Source: Leeuwenhoekiella aestuarii (GTDB taxonomy: Bacteria; Bacteroidota; Bacteroidia; Flavobacteriales; Flavobacteriaceae). From it: DNA of 55,512 nt. The notes beneath the pieces are model-generated. The model worked only from the letters and a program-made list of their open reading frames with translations, was not told where the DNA came from and did no database searches. Positions 15,979-48,275 of this stretch are shown piece by piece; position 1 is the first letter of the stretch, and the number at the start of each line of letters is the position of its first letter. The position numbers and the translations under genes are program-made. Where the stretch lies: contig NZ_QOVJ01000014.1 of assembly GCF_004104055.1 (NCBI RefSeq), forward strand, positions 1 to 55,512, in the 5' to 3' direction.

Positions 15979-16014
15979 CTAGGATATATGTAATTATTTC
16001 AGCTTGTTGTACAA
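15979..16014 (+). promoter_or_regulatory. island promoter motif, copy 1 (upstream of AraC gene)
   Basis: Left block CTAGGATATATGTAA, 15 bases, right block TGTACAA. The GTACAA part starts 30 bases from the motif start, the same spacing as in four other copies. It lies 178 bases before the AraC-type gene at 16193, which suggests autoregulation. Confidence 0.6.
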
Positions 16015-16192
16015 AAGTATTTGTGAAAAATTAATGAAACTTATAAAGTTAATTTTAGCAGATTATGAGACCTGAAAAGTACTCTATGCACAGAACGAAT
16101 GTGAGGCATAAATTGTTGAATTTAAAATAGAGTTTTAACAGGCTTTCATTTGCCTAAAATTCGTTTACTAATTATTGTAACACTTAAAAATT

Positions 16193-16768
16193 ATGAAAGT
16201 AAGAATTAAGAATATGGTAAGCCTGCGATGTAAACTCAAGGTAGCTTCAGTACTAGAAGAATTGGGTGTTGCGTATACGACTTTAGAGTTAGGAGAACTG
16301 CAATTTGCAAAGCCGCTTTCCAAGCCATTAAAACGAAAGCTAAAAGAAGAATTGTCAAAATCTGGTTTAGAACTTATTTATGACCGAAATGCCTTACTTA
16401 TTGATAAAATAGTCAATGTAGTGGTAGTGATGGTAAAGTATACAGAAGAATTACCCGAAATTAGTTTTTCTACTTACCTCAGCGATAAACTAAAGCTTGA
16501 CTACAACAAAATGGCAGTTCTATTTTCAAGTTCTAAAGGCATCACATTAGAACATTTTGTTATTCTGCACAAAGTAGAACGCGTTAAAGAGTTAATTATC
16601 TGTAATACATTGAACCTTACCGAAATATCTTTTAAGATGCAATACAGTGGTGTAGCGCATTTGTCTAAACAGTTTAAGCAAATAACCGGTATTACGCCTA
16701 CATTTTACAAATTGATGTCAGATCAGGAGCGCAGTGATCTGAATAAAGCCGGATGGCTTTATTCTTAA
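16193..16768 (+). CDS. AraC-type regulator with HMA-like N-terminal domain, left copy
   Basis: Product of 191 residues. The C-terminal 100 residues are an AraC double helix-turn-helix (FVILHKVERVKELII, LTEISFKMQYSGVAHLSKQFKQITGITPTFYK). The N-terminal half (IKNMVSLRCKLKVASVLEELGVAYTTLELGELQF) has the length and beta-alpha-beta pattern of an HMA-like ferredoxin fold; many relatives carry a metal-type CxxC where this one has SLRC, with a single cysteine. A paralogue sits at the other end of the island, pointing back toward it. It is the best candidate to read the motif found before seven island units, including its own gene. Confidence 0.85.
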   Translation: MKVRIKNMVSLRCKLKVASVLEELGVAYTTLELGELQFAKPLSKPLKRKLKEELSKSGLELIYDRNALLIDKIVNVVVVMVKYTEELPEISFSTYLSDKLKLDYNKMAVLFSSSKGITLEHFVILHKVERVKELIICNTLNLTEISFKMQYSGVAHLSKQFKQITGITPTFYKLMSDQERSDLNKAGWLYS

Positions 16769-16773
16769 AACCT

Positions 16774-16807
16774 GTGATAGATGTAATTTTCATAATAAAC
16801 TATACAA
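16774..16807 (+). promoter_or_regulatory. island promoter motif, copy 2 (upstream of SHOCT/atp operon)
   Basis: Left block GTGATAGATGTAA and right block ATACAA. It is the 34-base form, two bases shorter in the left block, shared with the copy at 36525. It starts 6 bases after the AraC stop and 108 bases before the SHOCT start codon. Confidence 0.6.
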
Positions 16808-16914
16808 CTGTTTTACCCAATTAAGTGCTGAATTTTGTGAAGTGAGTTGACATTAAGAAAATTCATCTAAAACAGCTCGTTATGGATATGTACGCAGGTT
16901 ATAATTTCTGAGGA

Positions 16915-17094
16915 ATGCACGTGATCTGGTGGTTTATCTGGGGCATTTTACTCCTGTGGATGTTTGCCACGCCTTACGAAATCCCTGGTCAATTTACCCG
17001 AAAAGAGACTCCCTTAGATATTTTAAAAAGACGTTTTGCTTATGGAGAAATTAATATGACAGAGTATAAAAAATTAAAAGAACACCTGCGTTAA
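16915..17094 (+). CDS. small membrane protein with SHOCT domain, start region disturbed
   Basis: A 59-residue protein with one membrane helix (WWFIWGILLLWMFA), the linker TPYEIPGQ, and a C-terminal SHOCT motif (PLDILKRRFAYGEINMTEYKKLKEHL). In the same frame just upstream lies ATG at 16882 with MDMYAGYNF, then TGA at 16909-16911, then Gly and this ATG. Similar peptides usually run through NFWGMH, so the TGA looks like a Trp codon turned stop, with a restart at 16915. The gene stands 21 bases before atpD and may belong to the ATPase operon. SHOCT segments often mediate oligomerisation; the role here is unknown. Confidence 0.6.
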   Translation: MHVIWWFIWGILLLWMFATPYEIPGQFTRKETPLDILKRRFAYGEINMTEYKKLKEHLR

Positions 17095-18630
<1,536 letters not shown>

Positions 18631-18643
18631 AAATCTAAACCAG

Positions 18644-19033
18644 ATGAATTTAAAAATCCTGCTTCCGTATAAACTATTTGCAGACATTAAAAATGTGAAA
18701 AGCATTGTGATGGAAACCAGTGAAGGTTGTTTTGGGATGTTACCTAACCGCCTGGATTGTGTGGCAGCACTAGTTCCGGGTATTTTAAGCTATAGAACGA
18801 CTACTCAAAAAACAAACTATATAGCCGTTGACGAGGGAGTTATGGTAAAGGCTGGTAGCGCAGTATTGATATCGGTACTCAACGCTACGGGAGGTACCGA
18901 CCTTGGAAAGTTGGGTGAACTTATAAAAACGGAGTTTAACAAAAAGGAGGAAGATCAACGCAAAGCACAAAGGGTAATTGCCAAGCTCGAGAGGGGCTTT
19001 GTATATAGCTTTGATAAATTCAGAAACCATTAA
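18644..19033 (+). CDS. atpC: N-type ATPase epsilon subunit
   Basis: Product of 129 residues with the epsilon N-terminal beta sandwich (LLPYKLFADIKNVKSIVMET, GCFGMLPNRLDCVAALVPGIL, VDEGVMVKAGSAVLISV) and a C-terminal helical part. It follows atpD by 13 bases, as in other N-ATPase operons. It forms the central stalk with gamma. Confidence 0.88.
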   Translation: MNLKILLPYKLFADIKNVKSIVMETSEGCFGMLPNRLDCVAALVPGILSYRTTTQKTNYIAVDEGVMVKAGSAVLISVLNATGGTDLGKLGELIKTEFNKKEEDQRKAQRVIAKLERGFVYSFDKFRNH

Positions 19034-19034
19034 A

Positions 19035-19358
19035 ATGGAATCCGAATTTCATAACGAATCCAGTTCTTTTAGTGAAGCAATTGCAAAAAAAGAAAAGCGG
19101 AAGCTCAATACACAGCAAAAGAAAAATAGTGTTTGGTCTGGTTTGGGAATGATGGGAATGGTTGGCTGGTCTGTTGTGGTTCCTGCGGTGATCGGTTCGG
19201 CTGTAGGGCTGTGGCTCGATAAACATCATCCGCAATCTTTTTCCTGGACGCTTACGCTTTTGTTAATCGGTGTTATCATCGGCGCAATAATCGCGGGGTA
19301 CTGGGTACAAAAAGAAGATAGTGAAATACATAATGATAAAAACGATGATGATGAATGA
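19035..19358 (+). CDS. atpQ: N-type ATPase accessory protein AtpQ (AtpI-like)
   Basis: Membrane protein of 107 residues: a charged N-terminus, then two helices (GMMGMVGWSVVVPAVIGSAVGLWL and LTLLLIGVIIGAIIAGYWV) around DKHHPQSF, the F0F1-ATPase_gene1/AtpI pattern. Its position between epsilon and AtpR is diagnostic of the N-ATPase operon. An upstream in-frame start exists inside atpC, but ATG at 19035, one base after the atpC stop, is the natural one. The acidic end overlaps atpR. It probably helps assemble the rotor ring. Confidence 0.85.
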   Translation: MESEFHNESSSFSEAIAKKEKRKLNTQQKKNSVWSGLGMMGMVGWSVVVPAVIGSAVGLWLDKHHPQSFSWTLTLLLIGVIIGAIIAGYWVQKEDSEIHNDKNDDDE

Positions 19359-19665
19359 ATCCTTGATACTGATTTTATGTTTTACTGCGGGGATGATCCT
19401 GGGCGTTCTGTTTTTTGGTGGACTCTGGTTGACGGTGCGCAAATCGGTAAATGCCAAAATCCCCGAACTGTGGATTTTTGGAAGTTTCCTTTTACGAACA
19501 AGCATAACTTTAGTAGGGTTTTACTTTATAAGCGGCACAGAATGGCAACGTCTTATTTTCTGTTTATTGGGATTTATAACAGCAAGATATCTGGTGATGC
19601 GAGCAACCAAAAAATGGGATGCCAAACATGAAATTCTAGAAAAAGAAGAAAACCATGGAGCTTAG
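19351..19665 (+). CDS. atpR: N-type ATPase-specific membrane protein AtpR
   Basis: Protein of about 104 residues with three membrane helices and conserved arginines within or next to them (SFLLRTSIT, FITARYLVMRATKKW). AtpR is found only in N-ATPase operons and has been proposed to contact the c subunits. I choose ATG at 19351, overlapping the atpQ stop by 8 bases; earlier in-frame starts from 19321 lie inside atpQ. The end overlaps atpB by 11 bases, which implies coupled translation. Confidence 0.83.
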   Translation: MNESLILILCFTAGMILGVLFFGGLWLTVRKSVNAKIPELWIFGSFLLRTSITLVGFYFISGTEWQRLIFCLLGFITARYLVMRATKKWDAKHEILEKEENHGA

Positions 19666-20356
19666 TCCCGACCAAACAATTTTCTGGCAGTATGGTTTTA
19701 TCACCATCAATCTGACTCTGGTTACGACCTGGGGCATTATGCTGTTCTTGATAAGTTCTTCGGTTGTGGTAACCCGCAAATTAAAAACCGGACTTCAAAT
19801 CTCACGCTGGCAATGTTTTGTCGAAATGATCGTAACCGGTATTAACGATCAGATTAAAGAAGTGGGCTTGAATAAACCACAGGAATACATCGGTTTTATA
19901 GGTACTTTGTTTTTGTTTATAGGTGTTTCGAACGTGTGTATTATTTTTCCGGGATACACGCCACCCACGGCATCCCTATCCACCACAGCAGCTTTGGCCT
20001 TGTGTGTATTTCTTGCGGTTCCGTTTTACGGGATTAGCAAAACCGGAATTCTGGGTTATCTCAAATCCTACCTGCAACCCACTTGGATTATGCTTCCGTT
20101 TAACCTTATCAGCGAGGTGTCACGTACACTGGCACTGGCAGTTCGTTTATTTGGAAACATTATGAGCGGCGGTATGATAGTGGCTATTTTATTAAGCATT
20201 TCGCCCTTTATTTTTCCAGTTATTATGAATGCGCTGGGCTTACTTACAGGCACGGTACAAGCGTACATTTTTAGTATTCTGGCAACGGTTTACATCGCCG
20301 CTGCTGTTCAGAATACCAAAAATAAAAAGAAACCTAAAATACTAAACACTAACTAA
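19655..20356 (+). CDS. atpB: N-type ATPase subunit a
   Basis: Membrane stator subunit of 233 residues with about five helices. The essential stator arginine is in ALAVRLFGNIMSG (about residue 164), preceded by ISEVSRTLA. The C-terminal helix has GTVQAYIFSILATVYIAAAV, as in all a subunits. It lets ions reach and leave the c ring. The start overlaps the end of atpR. Confidence 0.92.
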   Translation: MELSPDQTIFWQYGFITINLTLVTTWGIMLFLISSSVVVTRKLKTGLQISRWQCFVEMIVTGINDQIKEVGLNKPQEYIGFIGTLFLFIGVSNVCIIFPGYTPPTASLSTTAALALCVFLAVPFYGISKTGILGYLKSYLQPTWIMLPFNLISEVSRTLALAVRLFGNIMSGGMIVAILLSISPFIFPVIMNALGLLTGTVQAYIFSILATVYIAAAVQNTKNKKKPKILNTN

Positions 20357-20366
20357 ATCTCTAAAA

Positions 20367-20636
20367 ATGGACAGTACAACTTCAATAGCCATCGCATCAA
20401 TTATTACTGCCGGTCTCACTACCGCTGTAGGATGTATGATGCCGGCAATAGGCGAAGGCAAGGCTGTTTCTACGGCATTGAGCTCAATAGCACAGCAGCC
20501 AGATGCGGCTCCTACCATTACCCGAACGTTATTTGTGGGCCTAGCAATGATCGAGTCTACCGCGATTTATTGCTTTGTAGTGGCAATGATTCTCCTTTTT
20601 GCAAATCCCTTCTGGAACCACGTAATCGCTAATTAA
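20367..20636 (+). CDS. atpE: N-type ATPase subunit c with two-carboxylate ion site
   Basis: Rotor subunit of 89 residues forming two helices. Helix 1 carries P26 and E30 (MMPAIGEGKAV); helix 2 carries E63-S64-T65 and Y68 (MIESTAIYC). The P-x3-E/Q, E-S-T and Tyr positions are those of known Na+ sites in c subunits, and E30 plus E63 give the double-carboxylate site described for N-type rings. The loop RTLFV replaces the usual RQPE start. The residues point to Na+ binding, but a characterised N-ATPase c ring with two carboxylates is H+-specific, so the ion cannot be assigned from sequence alone. Confidence 0.93.
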   Translation: MDSTTSIAIASIITAGLTTAVGCMMPAIGEGKAVSTALSSIAQQPDAAPTITRTLFVGLAMIESTAIYCFVVAMILLFANPFWNHVIAN

Positions 20637-20642
20637 AATCCT

Positions 20643-21440
20643 ATGAAAATCAACTGGTTCACGGTAATAGCGCAAGTCATCAATTTCCTAATTCTGGTGT
20701 GGTTGCTCAAAAAATTCTTATACAAACCCATTCTGAATGCAGTGAATACCCGAGAAAAAAAAATTACTGATGAACTGAAAGATGCCGATGCTCAAAAAGC
20801 GTCTGCACAACAGGAAAAGGACGATTTTAAAAAGAAGAATACAGATTTTGATACTCATAAGAAAAACCTAATGGCAGCGGCAGTTGCAGATGCGGCTACT
20901 CAAAAAGAGCAGCTTATAACTGCGGCCAAGACCCAAGCCAATGAACTGCGAACCACTATGGAAAAAGCCGCTCAGGAAGATCAGAAGAATGAGAATGCAG
21001 CACGTGCTCACGACAATCAAGATCAGGTTTTTGCGATGACACGTAAAGCCCTTACTGCTATTGCTTCTGTAAGCTTAGAAGAACACGCGGCAAACAGTTT
21101 TATTCAACGCTTGAAATCGGCTACAGAAGAAGAAAAAAAGCAAATGCAGGATGCGTTTCAGTCTAAAGAGCATGTTCTTTTAGTACGTTCTGCTTTTGCT
21201 CTAGCTGAAGAGCAACAGGCAAGTATAAAGAATGTAGTTAAGGGAGTGTTGAATGTGGAAAAAACAATGGAATTTAAAACAGACCCCCAATTGGTTAGCG
21301 GAATCGAACTTTCCACAAGCGGCTATAAACTGGGGTGGAATTTTTCTGAATATATAAATGCTTTGGAAGAACATACAGCTGAAATATCGAAAGAAAAGCT
21401 AAAACTGCAATTGGAAAAAAAAGCTGTGATATCCAACTAA
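20643..21440 (+). CDS. atpF: N-type ATPase long subunit b with delta-like C-terminus
   Basis: Peripheral stalk subunit of 265 residues, much longer than the roughly 160 of ordinary b. An N-terminal helix ([23 protein letters not shown]) anchors it. A long charged coiled coil (about residues 35-130) follows, then a helical region, then a C-terminal segment [20 protein letters not shown] that resembles the C-terminal domain of delta. The operon has no separate delta gene, so this protein probably supplies both functions. The delta resemblance is my reading of a short stretch. Confidence 0.88.
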
Positions 21441-21441
21441 T

Positions 21442-22959
21442 ATGCAAGCAAAAACCCCTACTCTACCCTATCAGTTCATCGAAGGAATTGAAAATTTTAA
21501 ATTTCCACTGACACCACGTGAAATTGGAACGGTGACTAGCGTTTCAACAGGAATAGCAACGGTCTCCGGCTTACCTAATGTGGGTTTTGAAGAATTGCTG
21601 AAATTTAAAAACGGACTTTTTGGTATTGCTTATAATCTTGATGAAGACGAGATCGGTGTTATTCTTTTAGGAAAAGACTTTTTGCTCAAAGCCGGTGATG
21701 AGGTCGAGCGTACCGGTCGCGTGATAGATGTTCCAGTGGGTGATGGATTGATAGGAAGAGTGATTGGTCCGCTTGGCAACCCTTTAGATGATAAAGGCAC
21801 TGTGTGGTTTCGTGAGCGTTTTCCCATTGAGCGCCCCGCACATCAGATAATGGATCGAAGTGCGGTTTCGGTTCCCTTACAGACGGGTATTAAGGTGATT
21901 GACGCGTTGATTCCCATTGGTCGCGGCCAGCGTGAATTGATCGTGGGAGACCGCCAGACCGGTAAAACCGCCATAGCCATTGATGCCATTCTTAATCAGC
22001 GTGATAAAAATGTATTGTGTATTTATTGCGCTATTGGCCAAAGAGCTTCTGCTGTGGCAAAAGTGATTGCCAATTTTCAGGAAAAAGGAGCAATGGAATA
22101 CACCGTAGTGGTGGTTGCCGAAGGGAATAATGCTCCAGGAATCTCCTACATTGCCCCTTATGCAGCGACTAGTATTGCAGAATATTTTATGGAGGCAGGC
22201 CGCGATGTGCTTATCGTTTATGATGACCTTACGCATCATGCACGCGCGTATCGAGAACTGTCTTTATTACTACGAAGACCACCGGGGCGAGAAGCTTTTC
22301 CCGGTGATATTTTTTACATTCACTCCAGATTGCTAGAACGCTCAACGCATTTAAGCTCTGATTTAAAAGGCGGTTCGCTTACGGCTTTGCCAATTATAGA
22401 AACCGAAGCACAGAACATTTCGGCATACATCCCCACAAATTTAATTTCCATAACAGACGGGCAAATCTATTTATCGCCTAAACTTTTTGAACTTGGAATT
22501 CTACCGGCTGTTGATGTTGGAAAATCGGTTTCCAGGGTTGGAGATAAAGCGCAGTTGTTCGCGTATCGCGCTATTGCAAAACTAAAACTCGAGTATGCTC
22601 AGTTTGAAGAATTAGAAAGCTTCACCCGCTTCGGAACCCGACTCGATGAGGGCACTAAAAAGACAATCGCTCACGGAAAGCGTATTCGCGAATGTTTGAA
22701 ACAAGAAGAGCATCAGCAGTTGACGGTATCTGAACAAATCGTGATTTTACTTTCTTTGAAAGCAGGTCTTTTAGATACAATTGTCATCGAAAGGATTCAA
22801 GAAGCAGAGCAGGAATTACTTAACAATATGGATTCTTTTCCGCAGGAAATTATACAACGTATTACTTCTAACGAAAAGCTAAGCGAGGAAGATAGCCAGA
22901 CGATTCTCAAAATTTCTGAAACGCTACTGAAATTCTTCTTAGATAAACCCGAAGTCTGA
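21442..22959 (+). CDS. atpA: N-type ATPase alpha subunit
   Basis: Non-catalytic nucleotide-binding subunit of 505 residues. P-loop GDRQTGKT at residues 169-176, VIYDD-type Walker B ([34 protein letters not shown]) and the conserved SRLLERS. The arginine finger region FARFGTRLD is present as [14 protein letters not shown]. It starts one base after atpF and its last base is the first base of atpG (TGATG overlap). Confidence 0.94.
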
Positions 22960-23843
22960 TGGATACTTTAGAAAACCTACGCGGTAAGATTGAAGGCGCC
23001 AAAGATTTAAAGTCGGTGGTGAATGCCATGAAAGCGATGGCAGGTTCTAATATTATTCAATATGAGACCGCTGTAAGTTCCCTTGCAGCTTATTATTATA
23101 CTATAGCTCTAGGAATCGTTGGATATTTTAAAGCTGAGCAGATTGCAGCAATTGAAAAACCGAAGGGATTTAAAAATAAAGAAGAAGTGATTTGTGCCAT
23201 TGTTTTTGGTTCTGATCAGGGATTGGTTGGGCAGTTTAATGATTCTATGGCAAACTTTGTTTCTGAATACTTTAAGGCTTTAACCGGAAAAAAAGAGGTT
23301 TGGGTAGTAGGCGAACGGATGCAACTGTTGTTGTCTGATGAAGGTTTTAATACTTCAAAAATATACCCGGTACCTAATGCTATTAATGGGGTTACGCCTT
23401 TAATTACTGAAATTTTAAACCAAAGTAGGAAAAGTCAGGATAACGAGAACATTTCAGTCTTTTATATTTTTCACAATAAGCCTAAACCAGATTCGGGTTA
23501 TATCCCGGTAATGCAGCGTTTCCTACCATTAGATCAACAGTGGAAGGATGACTTACAAGAAACCGAATGGCCTACAAAATTACTTCCGCAGCTTGCAGGA
23601 GCTGTACGTCCCACACTTGCTACTCTAATTAAAGGCTATCTATTTACTTCGTTATTTAAGGCCTGTGTAGAATCATTAGCGAGTGAAAATGCGAGCCGGT
23701 TAGAAGCCATGCAACGCGCAGAAAAAAATATTAGTGATCAGCTAGAGGATCTCAACAAAAAATACCATCGACTTCGCCAAAGCTCAATTGATGAAGAATT
23801 GTTTGACGTGGTTTCAGGTTCTGAAGCATTGAAAAAGTCATAA
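22959..23843 (+). CDS. atpG: N-type ATPase gamma subunit
   Basis: Central shaft of 294 residues. The N-terminal helix LENLRGKIEGAKDLKSVVNAMKAMAGSN and the C-terminal helix ASENASRLEAMQRAEKNISDQLEDLNKKYHRLRQSSIDEELFDVVSGSEAL are the paired coiled coil of gamma. The central Rossmann-like part contains IVFGSDQGLVGQFND. It is the last gene of the canonical operon, and genes on the same strand follow. Confidence 0.92.
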   Translation: MDTLENLRGKIEGAKDLKSVVNAMKAMAGSNIIQYETAVSSLAAYYYTIALGIVGYFKAEQIAAIEKPKGFKNKEEVICAIVFGSDQGLVGQFNDSMANFVSEYFKALTGKKEVWVVGERMQLLLSDEGFNTSKIYPVPNAINGVTPLITEILNQSRKSQDNENISVFYIFHNKPKPDSGYIPVMQRFLPLDQQWKDDLQETEWPTKLLPQLAGAVRPTLATLIKGYLFTSLFKACVESLASENASRLEAMQRAEKNISDQLEDLNKKYHRLRQSSIDEELFDVVSGSEALKKS

Positions 23844-23871
23844 TTCCCTTCAACGTGCAGATGTGTGGTTT

Positions 23872-24018
23872 ATGCAAGAATTAATCGAAATAGAACAAGA
23901 GCGCGGATTCTTTAAAAGGGTACCTTTTTTCATTCTTAGAAAGATCATCAAATCAAAGCGTATAACGCGAAAAGGAATTAGGAGCTTGATGGATCTTTCT
24001 GAATCAAATGCAAATTAG
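23872..24018 (+). CDS. possible 48-residue basic peptide
   Basis: ATG at 23872 opens a 48-residue frame (MQELIEIEQERGFFKRVPFF, then ILRKIIKSKRITRKG) between atpG and phosphoketolase, 28 bases after the atpG stop. It is amphipathic and strongly basic. No family is recognised. It could be a real small gene of the operon or chance. Confidence 0.35.
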   Translation: MQELIEIEQERGFFKRVPFFILRKIIKSKRITRKGIRSLMDLSESNAN

Positions 24019-24075
24019 GGCTTCCGCAGCTTTAAAATCTTGCTTGATTAAACCCGAATACACTAAAATAAAACT

Positions 24076-26463
24076 ATGGAAGCAGAATTGATTAATACAG
24101 CCACCGGAATATTGTCTCCCGATCTTCTAAGAAAGATAAACGCCTATTGGCGCGCTGCTAACTATCTTTCGGTAGGGCAACTTTATTTGCGGGAGAACCC
24201 GTTACTTAAGGAGCCTTTAAAGCTTTCTCACGTAAAGAAAATGTTGTTGGGTCACTGGGGAACTACCCCGGGTCAAAATTTTATCTACGTCCATCTCAAT
24301 AGAATTATAAAAGAATACGACCTCGATATGTTTTACATCGCAGGTCCGGGTCACGGTGGTCCTGCATTAGTAGGAAACACCTATTTGGAAGGTACCTATA
24401 GTGAGATTTATCCCGATATAAGTCAGGATGAGGACGGACTCAGAAAATTATTTACCCAGTTTTCGTATCCCGGAGGAATCCCAAGTCATGTATCTCCTGA
24501 TTGTCCGGGTTCGATTCACGAAGGAGGAGAATTAGGCTATTCTCTAAGCCATGCATTTGGCGCAGCCTTTGACAATCCTGAACTCATCATATCCTGTATT
24601 ATTGGTGATGGCGAGGCAGAAACCGGTCCGCTAGCTACCGCTTGGCATTCTAATAAATTTCTGAATCCCGTTACAGACGGCGCTGTTTTGCCTATTCTGC
24701 ATTTAAACGGATATAAAATTGCAAACCCAACCATACTGGCAAGAATTCCACATAAAGAGCTCAAAAAGTTGCTTAAAGGCTATGGTTGGAAACCTTATTT
24801 CGTAGAAGGTGATAATCCCGAATTGATGCATCATATAATGGCAGAAGTTATGGATGAGGTGGTCAAAGAAATTCAGCAAATTCGAAATGATGCCCGTAGT
24901 AAGGGAGTGACCAAAAGACCGCGCTGGCCAATGATCGTGCTCAAATCTCCCAAAGGCTGGACCGGACCAAAAGAAGTAGACGGTTATAAAATAGAAGGAA
25001 CCTTTAGAGCGCATCAAATACCGCTGCAGGTAGATCGAGAGCATCCACAACATCTGCGTGTACTGGAGGAGTGGATGAAAAGTTATAAGCCGGAAGAGTT
25101 GTTTACCGAAGTAGGGAAACTTGTGCCTGAATTAGCTGCACTTGCACCAAAAGGCGAACGCAGAATGGGCGCAAACCCACATACAAATGGAGGGAAATTA
25201 CTGCGCGATCTGGTGATACCTAACTTTAGAAATTATGCGGTTGAAACGCACACCCCGGGATCTGTAAAAGCTTCAGATACGAACCAAATGGGCATTTTTC
25301 TGAGAGATATTGTTAAACACAATCAGGAGCAACGAAACTTTAGGATTTTTGGACCGGATGAGATTCTTTCCAATCGCCTAAATGCTGTTTTTGAAGAAAC
25401 AGACAGGCAGTGGGAATCAGGATCCAGAGTAAATGATGAGTTTCTTGCTTTGGAAGGCAGTGCGGTAGAAATGCTAAGCGAGCATCAATGTGAAGGTTGG
25501 TTAGAGGGCTATTTACTTACGGGAAGACACGGGCTATTTACGAGTTATGAAGCCTTCATACATATTGTTGATTCTATGTTTAATCAGCACGCAAAGTGGT
25601 TAAAAGTAAGTGCACGAATCCCGTGGAGAACAAAAATTGCGTCTCTAAATTATTTGCTGGCTTCCCACGTTTGGCAGCAAGCTCATAACGGAGATACGCA
25701 TCAGGATCCCGGTTTTATTGATCACGTGGTCAATAAAAAAGCTTCCATAGTGCGGGTATACCTTCCGCCGGATGCGAACTGTTTACTGTCTGTAACCGAT
25801 CATTGTTTGAGAAGCCGTCATTATGTAAATGTGATTATTGCCGGTAAATATCTGGCTCCGCAGTGGTTAAATATGGAAGACGCGATAGCGCATTGTACCC
25901 GAGGAATTAGTATCTGGAAATGGGCAAGTACTTACCACGGTACTAATCCTGATGTGGTGATGGCAAGCTGTGGGGATGTGCCTACACTAGAGTCACTTGC
26001 AGCAGTTTCCATTCTTAAAGAATTTTTACCAGAGCTCAATGTAAGAGTCGTAAACGTTGTTGATCTGATGAAATTAGAATCGAATACCGAGCACCCACAC
26101 GGATTGACTGATGAGGAGTTTGACAGGTATTTCACGGCAGACAAGCCGATTATTTTTGCTTTTCATGGTTATCCGAAACTCGTACATACCCTTACCTATC
26201 GCCGTACAAACCATGTCAATATGCATGTGCATGGTTATAACGAAGAAGGTACAATCACAACGTTTTTTGACAATCTAGTGGCTAACGACTTAGACCGCTT
26301 TCATTTAGTGATAGATGTTGTAAATCGTTTGTCTCATCTGGGTGAAAAAGGACAGGCGGTAAAACTTATGCTTGAGGAAAAACTGGTTAAACACAGCGCA
26401 TACATCATCAAAAACGGTGAAGATTTACCGGAAATCCGCAATTGGAAATGGAAAAAAAACTAG
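24076..26463 (+). CDS. xfp: xylulose-5-phosphate/fructose-6-phosphate phosphoketolase
   Basis: Thiamine-diphosphate enzyme that splits X5P or F6P with phosphate into acetyl phosphate and a shorter sugar phosphate. Length of 795 is typical. Visible blocks are [20 protein letters not shown], the AGPGHGGPA loop, [27 protein letters not shown] and the ThDP/Mg motif [21 protein letters not shown]. The C-terminal part contains the usual [12 protein letters not shown]. It is followed immediately by the aldolase, with the start of one inside the end of the other. Acetyl phosphate could give ATP through acetate kinase, which is not in this window. Located downstream of the N-ATPase on the same strand. 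Confidence 0.96.
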
Positions 26464-27446: not shown

Positions 27447-27488
27447 ACTTATTTGACCAGAGAAATAGAACATTGAAAAGTTTTAAAT

Positions 27489-30062: not shown

Positions 30063-30098
30063 GTGGGAGATGTATAAAAAATTATAGGAATTCAACAA
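30063..30098 (+). promoter_or_regulatory. island promoter motif, copy 3 (upstream of universal stress gene)
   Basis: Left block GTGGGAGATGTATAA, right block CAACAA, which is the weakest right half. The spacing to the right block is the standard 30 bases. It ends 114 bases before the stress protein ATG. Confidence 0.45.
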
Positions 30099-36319: not shown

Positions 36320-36328
36320 ACCGTGCAA

Positions 36329-36524: not shown

Positions 36525-36558
36525 TTGTACAATTATCTGTAATTGTTACATAAATCAC
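36525..36558 (-). promoter_or_regulatory. island promoter motif, copy 4 (upstream of small protein/transferase unit)
   Basis: Read on the - strand: left block GTGATTTATGTAA, right block TTGTACAA. It is the 34-base form. It ends 64 bases before the start of the 43-residue gene. Confidence 0.65.
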
Positions 36559-36583
36559 ATTTCTTCTTAACTATTAAAACCTT

Positions 36584-37750: not shown

Positions 37751-37754
37751 GGTT

Positions 37755-38897
37755 TTAGCTTATACCCAATTTGTCCTGAATAATATCTATAAATTTTTGA
37801 GCAACTATTTTATAATCAAAATTAGCCACCACGTGCTTTCTGGCCTCGTTTCCCAATGATGTTCGCAGGTTTTCATCCTTCATAAGCCTTAGCATATAGT
37901 TAGCAATGTCCTGCACATTTGCACGGTAATCTACGGTTCTGGGAATATCAAATTCAATTTTATGTGAATTTTCAAAACCTGATTCTTTTCCAAGAGTTAC
38001 TTCCTTAACAACTATACGTTGTGCCACACTTGCCAATAATGCGGTTTTCTCATGAATAAGCGTATCGAGCATTCCCATTGCCTTAAGACTTATCACAGGT
38101 TTACCACAAGCTCCGGCTTCAACCTGAGGCATCCCAAAACCTTCTAATCGGGAAGGAGCTGCATAAATATCACAAGCTCCGATCAGATAAGGCATAAAAT
38201 TTCTAGAAATTGTATTGGTGGCGTAGGTTACATTTTTTTCAATACCCAGTTTTGTAGCCATTTCCAGGTCTAAAAGATTTTGAGCTTTGGTACGCGGCTG
38301 TGGCCATACTTTACAAACGTATTTCCAATCTGGTGCTTGGGCATCTATAATTGCCAGAGCTTGCATCACTTCCTGGGCACCTTTTGAGGCTGCGTCCCCA
38401 CCTACTGTCAAGACCATTAACTGATCTGGGGAAATACCTAAAGCTTCCCTCACTGCACTTATTTTAGGATCTGTCTTTTCAAAAGGAATAAAGTAACTGG
38501 TATCGCAACCTACCGGCAATACCACAATATTGTCAGGTTTTATTCCATCACGGACGTACATCTCCTTAACCCAGTTAGAAGTTACCAAGATAAGTGGTAA
38601 GGCATTAAGTACTTCCTGATAGTTAGCAATGTACCCGTCTGCAACCAACCACGGCACCGGAAGTACCCCATACCTTTGAGGATGGAGCACAAGATCTGGT
38701 GTATGTCCCCAATAGCCCACTCCTACTACGACATCTGGCTCAAACCAGCGGTAATACCATTCTTTTTCCTGTGCTGATTCAAAATGAACCGCATGTGCAT
38801 CTACACCCAATTCTAACAGTCCGCGGTATAACAAATCTCCCTGCGTTGCCAGACCTCCCGGTGAAGGTGGATAATCGTAAAGAACTAAAACTTTCAT
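37755..38897 (-). CDS. GT4-family glycosyltransferase, second
   Basis: A 380-residue GT-B enzyme: KVLVLYDYPPSPGGLATQGDLLYRGLLELG, VVGVGYWGH, VLTVGGDAASKGAQEVMQAL and YAAPSRLEGFGMPQVEAGACGKPVISLKAMGM with the E-x7-E pattern. Its start overlaps the end of the PIG-L gene by 4 bases. PIG-L plus GT4 is reminiscent of pathways that add and then deacetylate an N-acetylhexosamine, for example in low-molecular-weight thiols. The other thiol genes are not here, so a glycan or glycolipid is as likely. Confidence 0.88.
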   Translation of the reverse strand: MKVLVLYDYPPSPGGLATQGDLLYRGLLELGVDAHAVHFESAQEKEWYYRWFEPDVVVGVGYWGHTPDLVLHPQRYGVLPVPWLVADGYIANYQEVLNALPLILVTSNWVKEMYVRDGIKPDNIVVLPVGCDTSYFIPFEKTDPKISAVREALGISPDQLMVLTVGGDAASKGAQEVMQALAIIDAQAPDWKYVCKVWPQPRTKAQNLLDLEMATKLGIEKNVTYATNTISRNFMPYLIGACDIYAAPSRLEGFGMPQVEAGACGKPVISLKAMGMLDTLIHEKTALLASVAQRIVVKEVTLGKESGFENSHKIEFDIPRTVDYRANVQDIANYMLRLMKDENLRTSLGNEARKHVVANFDYKIVAQKFIDIIQDKLGIS

Positions 38898-39559
38898 AAT
38901 TTATTTTTAAGGGAACGCTTTGCATCTTGCAGCCATTTCAAGGCTTGTTGAGTTTTTGTAAATTTCCAGAAAGCTTCTGCTTTAGGATTGCATTGGGATT
39001 CAAAACTGTCGGGTAAAAAACCATAAACTTCATTTATGATTTTCGATTTCATTTTAAAAATAGATTCCGAAAGTATATTTTGAATGGGGGCTTCCTTTCT
39101 ATTCTTAGGGAAATAGGCTTTATTACTGTCTTCATAAGCGAAAGTCCACAATTCTCTGGTAGCAATTTTATTACCATGCCAAAGTTTTATAACTGCAGCA
39201 CCTATCTCTTCATGACGCAGGTGTCTGGTATATTCACCTGAGGGATCATGGGTTATGATTAGGTCAAAATATTTATGGGGTATCAGATTTAAAACAAATT
39301 TTTCAACATCTTTAGGTCTAAGAGGGACCTGCTCTGGACCATCATCTAGATCACCCATGATCCCATCAGCCTTTAACTGTTTTAATGCACTTCTAAATTT
39401 AGGCGCTCGATCTAAATCATTCTTTCTTGAAAGACAAGCTATAAACCGGTTCGCTTCAGGAAAATTTAAAACAGTACCGCCACACCATAGCGTCTCATCA
39501 TCAGGATGGGCTACGATCACAAGTATTTCCTTTTTATTTTCATTTACTGCTCCATCCAT
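38894..39559 (-). CDS. PIG-L/LmbE-family N-acetylglucosaminyl deacetylase
   Basis: Zinc hydrolase of 221 residues. AHPDDETLWCGGT gives two metal ligands and the general base; ITHDPSGEYTRHLRHEEIG supplies the third ligand region. Family members remove acetyl from N-acetylglucosamine in small molecules or lipids. First gene of a three-gene unit with GT4 and GH100-like genes, preceded by a copy of the island motif. Confidence 0.88.
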   Translation of the reverse strand: MDGAVNENKKEILVIVAHPDDETLWCGGTVLNFPEANRFIACLSRKNDLDRAPKFRSALKQLKADGIMGDLDDGPEQVPLRPKDVEKFVLNLIPHKYFDLIITHDPSGEYTRHLRHEEIGAAVIKLWHGNKIATRELWTFAYEDSNKAYFPKNRKEAPIQNILSESIFKMKSKIINEVYGFLPDSFESQCNPKAEAFWKFTKTQQALKWLQDAKRSLKNKL

Positions 39560-39678: not shown

Positions 39679-39714
39679 TTATACAGTTCTTATCAGATCA
39701 TATATAAATCACAC
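39679..39714 (-). promoter_or_regulatory. island promoter motif, copy 5 (upstream of PIG-L unit)
   Basis: Read on the - strand: left block GTGTGATTTATATAT, right block CTGTATAA, with GTATAA starting exactly 30 bases from the motif start. It ends 119 bases before the PIG-L start. Confidence 0.6.
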
Positions 39715-42600: not shown

Positions 42601-42617
42601 ACGTGTAATTTTTAGTG

Positions 42618-42821
42618 TTAATTATTCATTGCGCTGCTTATTCGAAAAAGGCGATACATGGGGCAAAAACCCAAAAAACCTGTGACAACGAGTATAAGAA
42701 CAGGAATCAATACTAAAAACGAAAAGGTTCCTGTAATTACCTGCGCTGCATAAAGGAGAAGAATTATAAAAGAAACGGTAAATCTCAGAACACTATCTAA
42801 AATATTCATGTTCAATATCAT
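42618..42821 (-). CDS. DUF2892-like small membrane protein
   Basis: About 67 residues with two hydrophobic helices (SVLRFTVSFIILLLYAAQVITG and FSFLVLIPVLILVVTGFLGFCPMYRLF) and the CPMYRLF end typical of DUF2892, a module also found fused to rhodanese domains. I choose ATG at 42821, which overlaps the peroxiredoxin stop as ATGA; a later ATG at 42809 is possible. Confidence 0.72.
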   Translation of the reverse strand: MILNMNILDSVLRFTVSFIILLLYAAQVITGTFSFLVLIPVLILVVTGFLGFCPMYRLFRISSAMNN

Positions 42822-43543
42822 ATAGTTATTTCTTTTTCGCATGCCTCTGCTATATGTTCTTTACTGAGTTTTTTAGTGCAAAAAAACCAGTCTGCGCAGG
42901 TGAGCTCTTCATCTTCGCATTGCATACGCTCTTTTGCTAAGCCGCACGAACCTGCAGGTGGTACGATAACATCATCGCCGGGTTGCCAGTCTGCGGGTGT
43001 GGCTACATCAAAAGCATCTGCTGTTTGCATCGCAATCAAGGCGCGTTTGAGTTCGTTAAAATTTCTTCCCATCGAAAGCGGATAGTAAATAAGCGCGCGT
43101 ATGATTCCTTTAGGATCTACAAAGAAAACAGCACGCACCGCTTTTGTAGAACTTTCTCCCGGCTGAATCATTCCGTATTTTTTGGCCACTTCCATCGTGA
43201 TGTCCTCAATAAGCGGGAAATTGACTTCTACGTTTTTCATACCCTTGAATTCGATTTTTTCTTTAATCGTACGTAACCAGGCAATGTGGCTGTAAAGGCC
43301 GTCAATAGACAACCCTACGAGCTTACAATTGAGTGCGTTAAACTCTGGCTCTCTACTGGCAAACGTCATAAACTCAGAAGTACACACGGGCGTAAAATCT
43401 GCAGGATGACTAAAGAGTATCACCCAGTTGCCCCTATAATCCTGCGGAAAGTTGATGGGTCCCTGAGTAGTCACTGCTTTAAAATGTGGTGCCTCATCCC
43501 CTATTCTGGGTAACGAGACTAGTGCTTCAAATGAAGAATCCAT
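42818..43543 (-). CDS. AhpC/Prx6-type peroxiredoxin
   Basis: A 241-residue thiol peroxidase. The peroxidatic cysteine is C54 in HPADFTPVCTSEF, with the partner Arg in a downstream block (AVRAVFFVDPKGIIRALIYYP). The long C-terminal arm with CADWFFCTKKL is the form seen in archaeal-type and Prx6-like enzymes, where these cysteines resolve the sulfenate. Second gene of the defence unit. Confidence 0.92.
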   Translation of the reverse strand: MDSSFEALVSLPRIGDEAPHFKAVTTQGPINFPQDYRGNWVILFSHPADFTPVCTSEFMTFASREPEFNALNCKLVGLSIDGLYSHIAWLRTIKEKIEFKGMKNVEVNFPLIEDITMEVAKKYGMIQPGESSTKAVRAVFFVDPKGIIRALIYYPLSMGRNFNELKRALIAMQTADAFDVATPADWQPGDDVIVPPAGSCGLAKERMQCEDEELTCADWFFCTKKLSKEHIAEACEKEITI

Positions 43544-43596
43544 AGATATAGGGTTGAATTAAAAGCGAAAGCCGTTTAGCTCCCGCTTAACTAAAT

Positions 43597-44265
43597 TTAA
43601 TAGACTAATGAATAATCATAATCTACCGTGAGTTCATTATTTACGTGTAATACCCCAGGTGTATTCCAAGCAATACGACCGGCTTCATCTTTTTGATACC
43701 ACGAAGTAACCTCGCCAGAAAGTGTAACGGTAGAACCTTTTACCCGTACGGCAATGTCTTTATCATTAATGGCGCTGCGCTTCAAGGCCTGTTCTACATC
43801 GTGCTGCTCAATCTTATCTCTCGATTCTGGATTGATTTTAATGCTGTTGGTCACCCCTTTAACGCCCATTAAAATGTGAACAGCTTCTTCGGCAGCTTCT
43901 CTTTGGTAATTCCATGGAAGCTCTCCCTCGAGGGTAATCCAACCTTCTTCAACGGTTATAGCTATCATATCTCTAGGTATAGACCAGTTTGCATTAAGAG
44001 AGACCAAAGCCTCTTCAGCCACTTCCTCATCAGTTTTTGACCAGAGACTGGGAAATTTTACTATTATATTTTCAACTAAGGCTTTAACGCCAATAACTTT
44101 TTTAGCTGCTTGCTCAGCTTCAATTTTCTTTAAATAATTATCTACTGTACCGGTTAGGGAAACCACACCATCTTTTGCAGTAACGCCTATCTCTGCCGCG
44201 TGTAATAAAGGTTCCCAGCGTATGGCATTTTGGACATCGGTTTGTAACTCTGCGTTGCTTTTCAT
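43597..44265 (-). CDS. triple BON-domain protein
   Basis: Three BON domains in 222 residues (about 3-70, 78-145, 150-218). Each shows the pattern of a helix, V-x-DG-V-x-L-x-G-x-V, helix, then V-x-N (GVVSLTGTV, GWITLEGEL, STVTLSGEV). No signal peptide is visible, so it is cytosolic or membrane-associated. BON proteins bind phospholipids or other surfaces under osmotic and envelope stress. First gene of the defence unit, 71 bases after an island motif copy. Confidence 0.88.
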   Translation of the reverse strand: MKSNAELQTDVQNAIRWEPLLHAAEIGVTAKDGVVSLTGTVDNYLKKIEAEQAAKKVIGVKALVENIIVKFPSLWSKTDEEVAEEALVSLNANWSIPRDMIAITVEEGWITLEGELPWNYQREAAEEAVHILMGVKGVTNSIKINPESRDKIEQHDVEQALKRSAINDKDIAVRVKGSTVTLSGEVTSWYQKDEAGRIAWNTPGVLHVNNELTVDYDYSLVY

Positions 44266-44336
44266 CTTTAAATTATTTAGACTGCTACAGACTTATAACA
44301 GCACCTTAAAGGTCTGGAAATACAGTGGGTAATGTA

Positions 44337-44372
44337 TTGTACAATTAGTCAGAATCATTGCATAACTCCCAC
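44337..44372 (-). promoter_or_regulatory. island promoter motif, copy 6 (upstream of BON/peroxiredoxin unit)
   Basis: Read on the - strand: left block GTGGGAGTTATGCAA, then TGATTCTGACTAA, right block TTGTACAA. This is one of the two strongest copies. It ends 71 bases before the BON gene start. Confidence 0.68.
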
Positions 44373-44406
44373 ATTTTGACTTTTTAGTGCGCTCAACGCG
44401 GAAGAG

Positions 44407-45120
44407 TTAACCCATTATTTTTACTCCGATCATTCCCGATAAAAAACCCAGACTCGCACCCAGTGCCGGGATGTAATTTTTTTTCATTTTAGATAAAGGC
44501 GCGATATCCTGAAATATCAAATACACTATACCGCCGGAAGCAAAAAGCATCAATACTCCTGTAGCGAGTGGTTTGTCTGCTAAAAAGTAAAAGCCAACAA
44601 GTGCTGAAGCTACTCCTGAAAAACTCAAGACGAAAAGGATGGCAAGACACAAGACTGTACTATACATTTCCTTTAAATCGATATAAGCATTAAATGCTTC
44701 CGGAACATTCTGAAGTCCTATGACCACAGCCAGCAGAATTCCCAGATCCGGATCCTGGGTAAAAACAGCACCCATTGCAATCGCTTCGGGGATAAAATCG
44801 GCCAGCATTCCTAATAATTGCGGCAGAGATCCTTTCTGCTTGTCGAGGTAGCGATCCAGCAGATAAAATGAAAAAGCTCCACCCAGAAAACTCACAATAA
44901 CAGGAATGATTTGCAGGGTTTCCATACCATATGGTATAAGTACCAAAGCAACCGCTGCCATCAAAATACCTCCACCAAAGGCGGTGATACTGTGTAAGAT
45001 TTCGGCTTTGATTAATCCCGATTTTACAAACGCTCCGAAATAATACGACGCAATACCTCCTATGATTATTGTTGAGCCCGAAAGCATCGCATAAATCAGG
45101 AGGTATTCTAGTGTCGTCAT
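44407..45120 (-). CDS. ZIP-family metal transporter
   Basis: An inner-membrane transporter of 237 residues with about eight helices. Metal-site motifs are seen in DFIPEAIAMGAVF and GLQNVPEAFNAY, where the common HNxPEG is changed to QNVPEA. ZIP proteins bring Zn2+, Fe2+ or other divalent metals into the cytosol. Last gene of the dehydrogenase/YceI/barrel/ZIP unit. Confidence 0.82.
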   Translation of the reverse strand: MTTLEYLLIYAMLSGSTIIIGGIASYYFGAFVKSGLIKAEILHSITAFGGGILMAAVALVLIPYGMETLQIIPVIVSFLGGAFSFYLLDRYLDKQKGSLPQLLGMLADFIPEAIAMGAVFTQDPDLGILLAVVIGLQNVPEAFNAYIDLKEMYSTVLCLAILFVLSFSGVASALVGFYFLADKPLATGVLMLFASGGIVYLIFQDIAPLSKMKKNYIPALGASLGFLSGMIGVKIMG

Positions 45121-45132
45121 GGTATGTTGAAT

Positions 45133-46416
45133 TTAGAAACTGATAGCTGCTTCCAGATTTACCCCATCAAACTGGGCTCCTGCAAATCTGCCGGTCCAGG
45201 CGTTGCCTTTGTAATTTTGATCTACATATTCTGCCTTAAGCACAATATTTTTAGACAAAAACCAGCCACCACCCAGATTCAAGCGCGTGATCTCCAGATC
45301 CTGGGTATCACTTTCTAAAGCCTGTCCTTTAACCGTGTTGTACCTTCCGGCGATAAAGAAGCGTTCATCCTGACCAAAACGATACACCAACTCACCAGCC
45401 AATTGTGTAAAATCACCCTCTTTTTGAGCTACAGTACCTGTTGTGGTATTGCTTCCTAATGCACGTTCAAAAATTCCGAAGAACTCAATCCCCTTGTACT
45501 TGATAAACGGATTGATCTGAAAAGCAGTTAACTTCTTAAACCGCGGATTAAAACGGCCTTCAAACTCGCCACCCTGAGTTGCCCCATCAACATCTGGGAT
45601 GGTATGTAAAACATTGTAATAGCGCCCGCCAGTACGGTCACCCCCGTATAAATACGTACCCGTAGAAGTTCCGTGATTACTATAAATAGATCCGGTTAGA
45701 CGAAAACGCATTTCGCTTCCCAGACTCTCGTCAAAGCCTATTTTACCGTAAAAGGAAGGTTTGTTGTCTGTATTCTCGTTGACGGTGACACTCTGGTTGA
45801 GTTTCCCATTGGTGATACCGGCAACAAGCAGCAATCCATTTTTTTGAAGCGTAATTTCTCCAAATGCTTCTGTAGAAAACGAATCCATAATATAATTGCC
45901 TACAAAAGGATTGAAAATCGCCCGGGCGTTGTCTGTACGTCTAAAGTGCGCATCGCCGTAATTGAACTCGTCGAGACCTATGGTGATGGTTGTGTATTTC
46001 ATAAGCTCTTCTAAAAGTCCGGGGCTTACAAAATCGAGCTTGTCTATTTGAATATGACCGCCTTTAACCCAGGTTTCTTCGTGATGCTGAGAAGATAAAT
46101 AGAGTTTTAAATGCATACGCACCCCATCAATCAACTGCACATCCAGGTTTAAATTAGCCGATGGCAGATTAAAATCTGACCCTAATTCTACCAGATTATT
46201 GGCATCATTGCTCTGATCCAGACTTTGAAACTGCATCGCAAAGTCTCCTCCTACCCGCACCCGCACGCCTTCATAAGCGATGGTGTCTTCTTTTGAAGTT
46301 TCAAACACATTAAGTCCTAATTGGCTGTTGGGTCTAAAATATTGTAAATTCTTTTGTTGTGCATTTGATGCAAAAACCATCAGGCATACCGAAATTGTAA
46401 GAATATATTTTGTCAT
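45133..46416 (-). CDS. outer membrane beta-barrel protein, porin-like
   Basis: A 427-residue protein with signal peptide ending SNAQQ, alternating beta strands throughout and a terminal aromatic residue (LEAAISF). The pattern, with VRVGGDFAMQFQSL and NPFVGNYIMDSF, is like OprP/OprO-type porins. Its neighbours, ZIP and YceI, hint at metal or small-molecule passage, but the substrate is unknown. Confidence 0.75.
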   Translation of the reverse strand: MTKYILTISVCLMVFASNAQQKNLQYFRPNSQLGLNVFETSKEDTIAYEGVRVRVGGDFAMQFQSLDQSNDANNLVELGSDFNLPSANLNLDVQLIDGVRMHLKLYLSSQHHEETWVKGGHIQIDKLDFVSPGLLEELMKYTTITIGLDEFNYGDAHFRRTDNARAIFNPFVGNYIMDSFSTEAFGEITLQKNGLLLVAGITNGKLNQSVTVNENTDNKPSFYGKIGFDESLGSEMRFRLTGSIYSNHGTSTGTYLYGGDRTGGRYYNVLHTIPDVDGATQGGEFEGRFNPRFKKLTAFQINPFIKYKGIEFFGIFERALGSNTTTGTVAQKEGDFTQLAGELVYRFGQDERFFIAGRYNTVKGQALESDTQDLEITRLNLGGGWFLSKNIVLKAEYVDQNYKGNAWTGRFAGAQFDGVNLEAAISF

Positions 46417-46438
46417 TTTTTCTATATAAATATTGAGG

Positions 46439-47041
46439 TTATATTTTTTCTGGTTTGCTGTAGATCACATCAAAACCCAGCGTGAGGTCTTCATCTGTTT
46501 TCATAAGTCCCATCATAAAAGAGGGCGGCTCCACATTATAATCGGTCATATTTAGCTGGTATTCCCCTTTGCAGGAAATAGCGTTAGGTGAGTGAACGAC
46601 CAGGTGCAGATTCATGACAATATCTTTGGTCACTCCCGCGACCGTTAATTTCCCTTTGGTTTGTAATAAATAGCCGCCTTTTTCAGGAGCGATTTGAGAA
46701 GAAGACAAGATGTAGTGAATTTCTTTATACGTATCGCTTTTCAACGCTTTGTACGCGTTTTTATCAAGGCCTTTGCTGTCACTTTTAAGGTTTAAGACTT
46801 CCAGATTAAACGTGAGTGCATCCAGTGATTTTAGTGTATTCCCATCGTTTGTATCAAATGTAAACCGGGCTTCCCCATTTGATTTTTTAGCATCCATCTC
46901 CCAGTCGTGCAAGGTAGAGCTGCCGTTTAGCCGCATATCAATTTGCCGCGTCTTTTCTATCGTAAAGGTTTCCTGCGCATTTAGAAAAGGGACATTAATG
47001 AGCATCAAAATCAACACGATCTTGTTTAGGTAGGTATTCAT
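46439..47041 (-). CDS. YceI-like periplasmic protein
   Basis: A 200-residue protein with signal peptide (to LNAQ) and a YceI-type lipocalin-like barrel: NGSSTLHDWEMDAK, KGKLTVAGVTKDIVMNLHL and a final TLGFDVIY. YceI proteins bind isoprenoid-like molecules and are induced by stress or alkaline pH in other bacteria. Confidence 0.82.
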   Translation of the reverse strand: MNTYLNKIVLILMLINVPFLNAQETFTIEKTRQIDMRLNGSSTLHDWEMDAKKSNGEARFTFDTNDGNTLKSLDALTFNLEVLNLKSDSKGLDKNAYKALKSDTYKEIHYILSSSQIAPEKGGYLLQTKGKLTVAGVTKDIVMNLHLVVHSPNAISCKGEYQLNMTDYNVEPPSFMMGLMKTDEDLTLGFDVIYSKPEKI

Positions 47042-47068
47042 AAGGGTGTTTTTGTTTTAGTTTATAAA

Positions 47069-48172
47069 TCAATTAGAAAGAATAATCTTAAGGACTTTGC
47101 TTTTTGAAGCATTCTCAAAAACCTCATAGGCTTTAAGTATCTCGTCTAGTTTAAAATGGTGGGTAATTAATTGTTCGGGCTTGATTTTACCAGAAACCAG
47201 GGTTTTAAGAAGCATAGGAGTCGTGTTAGTATTAACCAGCCCCATTGTAATTGTGATATTTTTAATCCACAAATCCTGAATTTCAAGACTTACCGGTTTA
47301 CCATGAACGCCTACGTTAGCTACGTGGCCGCCCGGTCTAACGATTTGCTGACAAATATTAAAGGTTGCAGGTACGCCCACCGCTTCAATAGCGACATCGA
47401 CCCCGTCTGGCGTTTCATCTTTGATGCGCTGTATGGCATCTTCAATACCCGTGTTGATTCCATGGGTTGCTCCCATTTCAATTGCCATTTTGAGTCGGTT
47501 TTCATCCAGATCAATCATGTATATTTTTGCCGGTGAGTAGAATTGGGCAGTGAGTAAGGCAGCCATACCTATGGGACCGGCGCCAACAATAGCGATGGTA
47601 TCACCCGGTTTTACGCAACCGTTAATAACTCCTATTTCGTGCCCAGTGGGCAAAATATCACTTAACATAACTAATGCATCTTCGCTAACATCCTTTGGAG
47701 CGAGATACAAACTGGTATCTGCGTGCGGGATGCGCACGTACTCGGCTTGTGTACCGTTGATGAGGTTTCCTAAAATCCACCCACCATCAATGCAGTGCCC
47801 GTAGAGTTGTTTTTTACAATAATCACACGTACCGCAAGAGGTGATGCATGAGATAATCACCAGATCTCCTACTTTAAGATGGGTAACTGCGCTGCCGGTT
47901 TCGGTAATGATGCCCACGCCCTCGTGACCCAAAGTGGTCCCCGGTTTTACTGAAGATGTTTTGCCGTGCAGAATACCCAAATCGGTACCGCAAATGGTAG
48001 TCTTAACAATTTGGACAATCGCATCTGTTTCTTTTCTGATACCGGGTTTTTCAACTTCTTCATAATCAATCTCGCCCGGCCCATGATAGACTAAAGCCTT
48101 CATTTGTGTTTTGGAATGTGGAAATACTCCGTTAGAAGTTTTATTAGGCAGTGAAATGGTGTTTAAGGTCAT
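47069..48172 (-). CDS. zinc-dependent alcohol dehydrogenase (MDR family)
   Basis: Medium-chain dehydrogenase: catalytic zinc site in TTICGTDLGI and LGHEGVG, structural zinc cysteines in CGTCDYCKKQLYGHC, NAD(P) loop AIVGAGPIGMAALL with acidic residue in MIDLDENRL, suggesting NAD. Many relatives begin at MKALVYHGPG, which here is residue 24 (ATG at 48103), so the first 23 residues may not be translated. It can regenerate NAD+ by reducing acetaldehyde-type substrates, which would suit fermentative or low-oxygen growth. Confidence 0.92.
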   Translation of the reverse strand: MTLNTISLPNKTSNGVFPHSKTQMKALVYHGPGEIDYEEVEKPGIRKETDAIVQIVKTTICGTDLGILHGKTSSVKPGTTLGHEGVGIITETGSAVTHLKVGDLVIISCITSCGTCDYCKKQLYGHCIDGGWILGNLINGTQAEYVRIPHADTSLYLAPKDVSEDALVMLSDILPTGHEIGVINGCVKPGDTIAIVGAGPIGMAALLTAQFYSPAKIYMIDLDENRLKMAIEMGATHGINTGIEDAIQRIKDETPDGVDVAIEAVGVPATFNICQQIVRPGGHVANVGVHGKPVSLEIQDLWIKNITITMGLVNTNTTPMLLKTLVSGKIKPEQLITHHFKLDEILKAYEVFENASKSKVLKIILSN

Positions 48173-48239
48173 CTTGATCAGGTTTTAGATTAACAAAAAT
48201 GATAAGATGTAAAGGTTCGTTACTAGCTTGCCTGAAGCC

Positions 48240-48275
48240 TTGTACCTTGAGGGAGAAGGTTTACATAAATCCCAC
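48240..48275 (-). promoter_or_regulatory. island promoter motif, copy 7 (upstream of dehydrogenase unit)
   Basis: Read on the - strand: left block GTGGGATTTATGTAA, right block AGGTACAA, with GTACAA exactly 30 bases from the motif start. It ends 67 bases before the longer dehydrogenase start. Confidence 0.68.

Follow-up and report, generated by a model that had tools for sequence, protein, structure and literature searches.

A shared promoter motif before eight gene units of a Leeuwenhoekiella aestuarii island and its predicted AraC-type regulators

Contig NZ_QOVJ01000014.1 of Leeuwenhoekiella aestuarii (assembly GCF_004104055.1) was analyzed over 55,512 nucleotides; this whole stretch, contig 14 of a 4,430,130-base genome and 1.25% of it, is called the window here. 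It holds what looks like a mobile island of stress, glycan, redox, and energy units, and a bipartite promoter motif recurs before eight of its units. Two genes encode short AraC-type regulators: the left one (16193..16768, + strand) has 191 amino acids (aa), an MVSLRC N-terminus, and a Pfam HTH_18 match, and the right one (48357..48923, − strand) has 188 aa, its AraC DNA-binding domain following a linker helix and a predicted ferredoxin-like N-domain. On the + strand lie a gene run for an alternate F1Fo ATPase (N-ATPase; 17116..23843), in which three proteins (17116, 18644, and 21442) gave family matches (TIGR03324 and TIGR03166 above cut-off; ATP-synt_ab), and, likewise identified by family matches, genes for phosphoketolase, class-I fructose-bisphosphate aldolase, and a P-type cation ATPase (24076..29990) and a universal stress protein (30213..31061). 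On the − strand, family matches identified a glycosyltransferase fusion (34043-36328) with a second glycosyltransferase (33036-34046; unit 33036..36328), PIG-L, glycosyltransferase, and GH100-like genes (36584..39559), and a BON-domain protein with a peroxiredoxin (42818..44265). A further − strand unit (44407..48172) encodes a zinc-type alcohol dehydrogenase, YceI, a 427-aa protein without a family match, and a ZIP-like transporter.

All eight sites fall in one register: TGKGATTTATGTAA, followed by a right block of the TTGTACAA type that ends 21 bp after the end of the left block, so that 15 bases, 13 bases, and the right block form a frame common to all. In most sites a Bacteroidota-like -7 box lies ~26 bp beyond the right block. 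On the + strand, site 1 (15979..16014; CTAGGATATATGTAA-N13-TTGTACAA) precedes the left AraC gene (16193), site 2 (16772..16807; CTGTGATAGATGTAA-N13-CTATACAA) precedes a 59-aa open reading frame (ORF; 16915-17094; labelled SHOCT in the initial annotation) and the alternate ATPase genes beyond it, site 3 (23863..23898; GTGTGGTTTATGCAA-N13-TAGAACAA) precedes the phosphoketolase gene at 24076, and site 4, the weakest (30063..30098; GTGGGAGATGTATAA-N13-TTCAACAA), precedes the universal stress gene. On the − strand, site 5 (36525..36560; ATGTGATTTATGTAA-N13-TTGTACAA) stands before a 43-aa ORF (36329-36460) and the glycosyltransferase fusion, site 6 (39679..39714; GTGTGATTTATATAT-N13-CTGTATAA) before the PIG-L/glycosyltransferase/GH100-like run, site 7 (44337..44372; GTGGGAGTTATGCAA-N13-TTGTACAA) before the BON/peroxiredoxin unit, and site 8 (48240..48275; GTGGGATTTATGTAA-N13-AGGTACAA), directly 3' of the right AraC gene, before the dehydrogenase unit; both of the last two carry a CCTTTA -7-like box. 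An initial annotation of this DNA had listed seven sites, all of which were found where it had placed them, but its count was incomplete: site 3 is the eighth, and its position suggests that the alternate ATPase genes are followed by an internal promoter. It had also described two spacings, of 30 and 28 bases. Both 28-base copies had been misaligned and fit without a gap, the one placed at 16774 in fact starting at 16772 (CTGTGATAGATGTAA-N13-CTATACAAC) and the one at 30063 already being in register (GTGGGAGATGTATAA-N13-TTCAACAAA); because both fall in the common register, there is one spacing rather than two.

The strict form of the pattern, allowing up to 3 mismatches, matched 4 times in the window and 0 times in 100 shuffles of it, and in the whole genome it returned only these four (0 for the reversed-pattern control). 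A relaxed form matched 9 times in the genome; the 6 that had no more than 2 mismatches all lay inside the window, whereas 3 matches with 3 mismatches lay outside it, against 5 in the reversed control. Equal sites throughout the genome would have spoken against a signal particular to the island, and in neither scan were matches spread in this way. With a leave-one-out matrix built from the island, the eight sites scored 21.2-37.5, the maximum in the reversed window being 9.7; the site at 30063, which was never in the training set, scored 22.8 (reversed maximum, 7.8). The best other position reached 11.9, at 35098 on the + strand inside an opposite-strand gene (reversed maximum, 9.1), and the same scan bore out the earlier statement that the GH130 (31579), rubrerythrin (41044), and right AraC (48923) genes are not preceded by a site. 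A foreign matrix, made from 147 sites in the loci L035-L114 described below, gave scores of at least 12 to seven of the eight window sites and to 0 positions in the reversed window; the weakest was 30063, with a three-part score of 6.4 where chance yields ~0.5 per window at ≥6. At a score of 8, this matrix found 42 matches versus 1 reversed in 20 further stretches, which had been picked for glycosyltransferase, AraC, or motif matches.

When the right AraC protein was used as a query, 80 loci were kept from a larger number of candidates (L035-L114; 64-78% identical), nearly all labelled Bacteroidota, with L052 and L060 labelled Melioribacteraceae and Ignavibacteriae. In these loci the island pattern with up to 5 mismatches and a gap of 13 matched 90 times versus 4 reversed. 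Gaps of 15 and 16 were also raised (63 versus 9 and 25 versus 2), because the right block takes the form TGTGTAAC in the phylum. A logo of 149 sites, selected by the left block alone, brought out the right repeat, an upstream A-tract, and a CCTTTG box at fixed places: TATGTAA occupies offsets 8-14 and TGTGTAA offsets 29-35, i.e., direct repeats 21 bp apart. Across 100 loci (training loci included; genes taken as longest open frames rather than from annotation), 229 sites scored at least 14, of which 202 lay outside gene cores, although cores make up 69% of the bases, and in 180 a gene on the same strand began within 500 nt. Exact TTTG stood at offset 62 in 118 sites and at offset 61 in 19 (137 of 229).

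Primary-sigma promoters of Bacteroidota are described as TAnnTTTG at -7 in two sources (PMC7366714 and PMC9723704). The motif sites resemble these in having TTTG at a fixed place downstream but differ in that the leading T of the TA is mostly C or G: TTT was present at 61/62 in 192 of 228 sites, among which the TA position read CA in 102, GA in 53, and TA in only 20. TTG at the spacing of a -33 element (17-23 bp) was counted 4 times in the same 192, so that a full TAnnTTTG with a -33 TTTG was not what these sites displayed. By eye, six of the eight window sites have a -7-like box near offset 58-66.

Motif and regulator family tend to occur together, with exceptions, in the Bacteroidota genomes compared. 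In a sample of 296 genomes, allowing up to 2 mismatches, 75 motif matches fell in 33 genomes, and the reversed pattern gave 5 matches. Of the 25 genomes that have a strong AraC homologue, 16 carried the motif, versus 17 of 271 others (P = 1.3e-11), a figure weakened by the fact that the cut defining a strong homologue (bits >200) was set after both tables had been seen. At the search's own limit of E 1e-20, an AraC match was present in 30 of the 33 motif genomes versus 109 of the 263 others (P = 3e-8), and stratification over four families gave P = 1.3e-8, with families f1 and f37 significant alone. At least 25 of the 75 matches lay within 20 kb of an AraC-family gene, the nearest 63 bp away between listed coordinates.

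Both island regulators belong to the AraC family by sequence (HTH_18 above cut-off) and fold, and they are 45% identical to each other; the other 19 AraC matches in the genome were weak (E 1.5e-9 or worse) and mostly covered the HTH part. An AlphaFold2 model of the right AraC protein (mean predicted local distance difference test [pLDDT] score, 87.8) has a strand-helix-strand-strand-helix N-domain (pLDDT ~90), a linker helix, and the DNA-binding domain. A fold search matched AraC domains, whereas matches to the N-domain were weak, e.g., the CsoZ metallochaperone (6ff1) at E 0.12 and a Foldseek template modelling score of 0.68 by target length. Residues S12 and C15 were invariant in 49 of 49 aligned sequences (MVSxRC; L053, with a stop codon, and L078 were left out of the alignment). 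HMA domains bind metal through a CxxC motif. The island family would resemble HMA domains and metallochaperones in its N-domain, predicted to be ferredoxin-like, and has the Cys at the second motif position, but it lacks CxxC itself, the first cysteine being Ser in 49 of 49. Both island proteins belong to a family of Bacteroidota whose MVSxRC N-domain is predicted to be ferredoxin-like (HMA-like). In a text-pattern count, 2 of 94 relatives read MVCxRC; the island proteins read MVSxRC.

Taken together, the eight sites are very probably direct-repeat operators of a short AraC-type activator acting on weak primary-sigma promoters, which would make the island one regulon. Binding of neighboring monomers to such repeats is known from AraC-family proteins. 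Here (T)ATGTAA closes the left block, and the right block repeats it 21 bp or two helix turns downstream and ~26 bp before the -7 TTTG, so that two AraC monomers could sit on the repeats with the nearer one roughly where a -33 element would be. Since the right repeat lies at about the -33 place and, phylum-wide, the leading T of the -7 box is mostly missing, the AraC protein would recruit RNA polymerase to promoters that would be poor on their own. The island's own two AraC proteins are the likely binders, and the MVSxRC N-domain may sense a signal; the N-ATPase, phosphoketolase, universal stress, glycan, redox, and dehydrogenase units would then be switched together, with the left AraC gene under its own control through site 1. 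The earlier proposal of one regulator is favored by the comparative evidence, as the same architecture accompanies AraC homologues in many Bacteroidota, though with two related AraC proteins encoded on the island "one" may mean either or both. This architecture resembles AraC/XylS activators such as AraC at araI, where AraC acts on direct repeats: the DNA-binding domain is of the AraC type, the repeats are 21 bp apart, and the promoter-proximal repeat lies near the upstream core-promoter region. It differs in the N-domain, a sugar-binding cupin in AraC and predicted to be ferredoxin-like here, in the Bacteroidota -7 promoter, and in the repeat sequence (TGTGATTTATGTAA/TGTGTAAC).

Conservation at orthologous loci supports part of this regulon. 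In 45 loci compared, a site lay upstream of the glycosyltransferase fusion in six of the seven with at least 65% identity; in G519 it was 964 bp upstream, before a 227-aa frame, and in the seventh, G324, no site preceded the fusion. Below 65% identity, no fusion site in 38 loci reached 12 (one scored 10.6). Among 25 fusion loci of the phylum sample, a site was present in five of eight with a strong AraC homologue versus none of 17 others. The closest locus, G650 (87% over the fusion), has sites also before PIG-L (17.6) and before the glycosyltransferase gene that follows its AraC gene (20.9). No orthologous island with all eight units was found, and in the same-genus genome G689 the fusion had no match at E 1e-60.

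Several observations weigh against the operator reading or narrow it. The island's right block, TTGTACAA, differs from the phylum form, TGTGTAAC, and in the order sample minus this genome the strict island pattern matched 15 times versus 7 reversed, from which we take TTGTACAA to be largely an island variant. Nine of the 25 strong-AraC genomes had no motif match at the cut used, three genomes (G374, G456, and G467) carried the motif but gave no AraC match at E 1e-20, two (G306 and G310) had clear motifs with distant AraC matches only, and strata f18 and f17 were not significant alone (P = 0.2 and 0.29). The -7 boxes of the window sites at 36560 and 30063 are poor by eye. The missing -33 box is weak evidence, because, as PMC7366714 states, no -33 element was identified in Flavobacterium johnsoniae at all. 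Finally, the N-ATPase site was not found at 24 other atpB loci and was seen in one of 25, the window only, these 25 being the best of 153 genomes with a match; the absence is a weak test, because a strong AraC homologue is present in only two of the 24 other genomes (G350 and G538). Conservation, which had been proposed as a check, is thus seen for the glycosyltransferase-fusion site in close relatives but not for the N-ATPase site, a pattern from which we infer that the glycan part may have joined the regulon earlier, with the N-ATPase part captured in this lineage.

It is unlikely that another regulator, of the CRP/FNR type or a core Bacteroidota factor, binds the motif while the AraC genes merely belong to the same regulon. 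The left block opens with TGTGA, which resembles a CRP half-site, and the motif-rich genomes G306 and G310, together with the three motif genomes lacking any AraC match at the limit used, would suit such a factor. The site is, however, a direct repeat at 21 bp and not a palindrome of the kind bound by a CRP-type dimer, and a CRP/FNR inverted-repeat operator was rejected on the logo; with stratification by family, motif presence also goes with the AraC homologue, and the motif adjoins an AraC gene in many loci.

Much less probable still is an alternative sigma factor whose own promoter elements would be the two blocks. Their bipartite look and fixed spacing would fit, but the blocks repeat each other 21 bp apart and a primary-sigma-like TTTG -7 box follows at a fixed distance downstream. 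That all sites lie on one island with an integrase might suggest a DNA module copied along with genes, through duplicated upstream regions or mobile-element ends, and of no regulatory meaning, yet this we consider the least probable account: by eye, the eight sites resemble each other only in the A-tract, the two blocks, and the -7 box and differ in their 13-bp spacers and flanks, and sites recur before unrelated genes phylum-wide at fixed spacing.

Beyond the island, the operator reading would extend, with rather better than even confidence, to a phylum-wide system of short AraC activators whose sensor would be a ferredoxin-like MVSxRC domain and which would bind a 21-bp direct repeat on promoters without a -33 element, a system that repeatedly captures new operons; here these would be N-ATPase and phosphoketolase, in a mobile, self-regulated energy-stress island. 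The papers listed by the literature searches included no description of the motif or the regulator family, and our impression is that few such regulators have been assigned in Bacteroidota. If the reading is right, it offers a testable regulator-site pair with a matrix usable in many Bacteroidota, connects a stress island of mobile appearance with one switch, and provides a natural set of probably activator-dependent promoters for studying the ways in which the unusual Bacteroidota sigma factor is assisted.

Among 116 genes downstream of motif sites, cupins were the commonest family (22 Cupin_2, followed by 10 OmpA, 9 ice-binding-like, 8 Band 7, and 5 HTH_18), and no family exceeded 3 in a control made up of 94 other genes from loci L035-L114. 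The 116 were hand-picked for length from 178, with near-identical repeats omitted and two AraC genes among the omissions; the control was 94 of 100 genes drawn, omitting five AraC genes and one integrase; the counts are uncorrected for locus relatedness, and the two sets come from non-identical loci. In Aquimarina (L036-L049), one or two motif copies follow the AraC gene and several precede ~117-aa genes that have a cupin-like protein (L035:1937-2287) as a relative. Three genomes of one genus (L007, L008, and L009) retain a near-identical site, GTGGGAATTATGTAA-N13-TTMTACGA.

A tyrosine integrase (49828-51072) and a DUF3875 gene (13724-14719), which we take to be of the conjugation type, flank the units on opposite sides. 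Twelve stretches of viral contigs matched a pattern, none of them a relative, and 28 plasmid records held distant glycosyltransferases, all below 60%. A 128-aa protein (41633-42019) had no Pfam match and a weak pelota-like one; three AraC loci (L078, L096, and L114) hold relatives of it at 42-52%.

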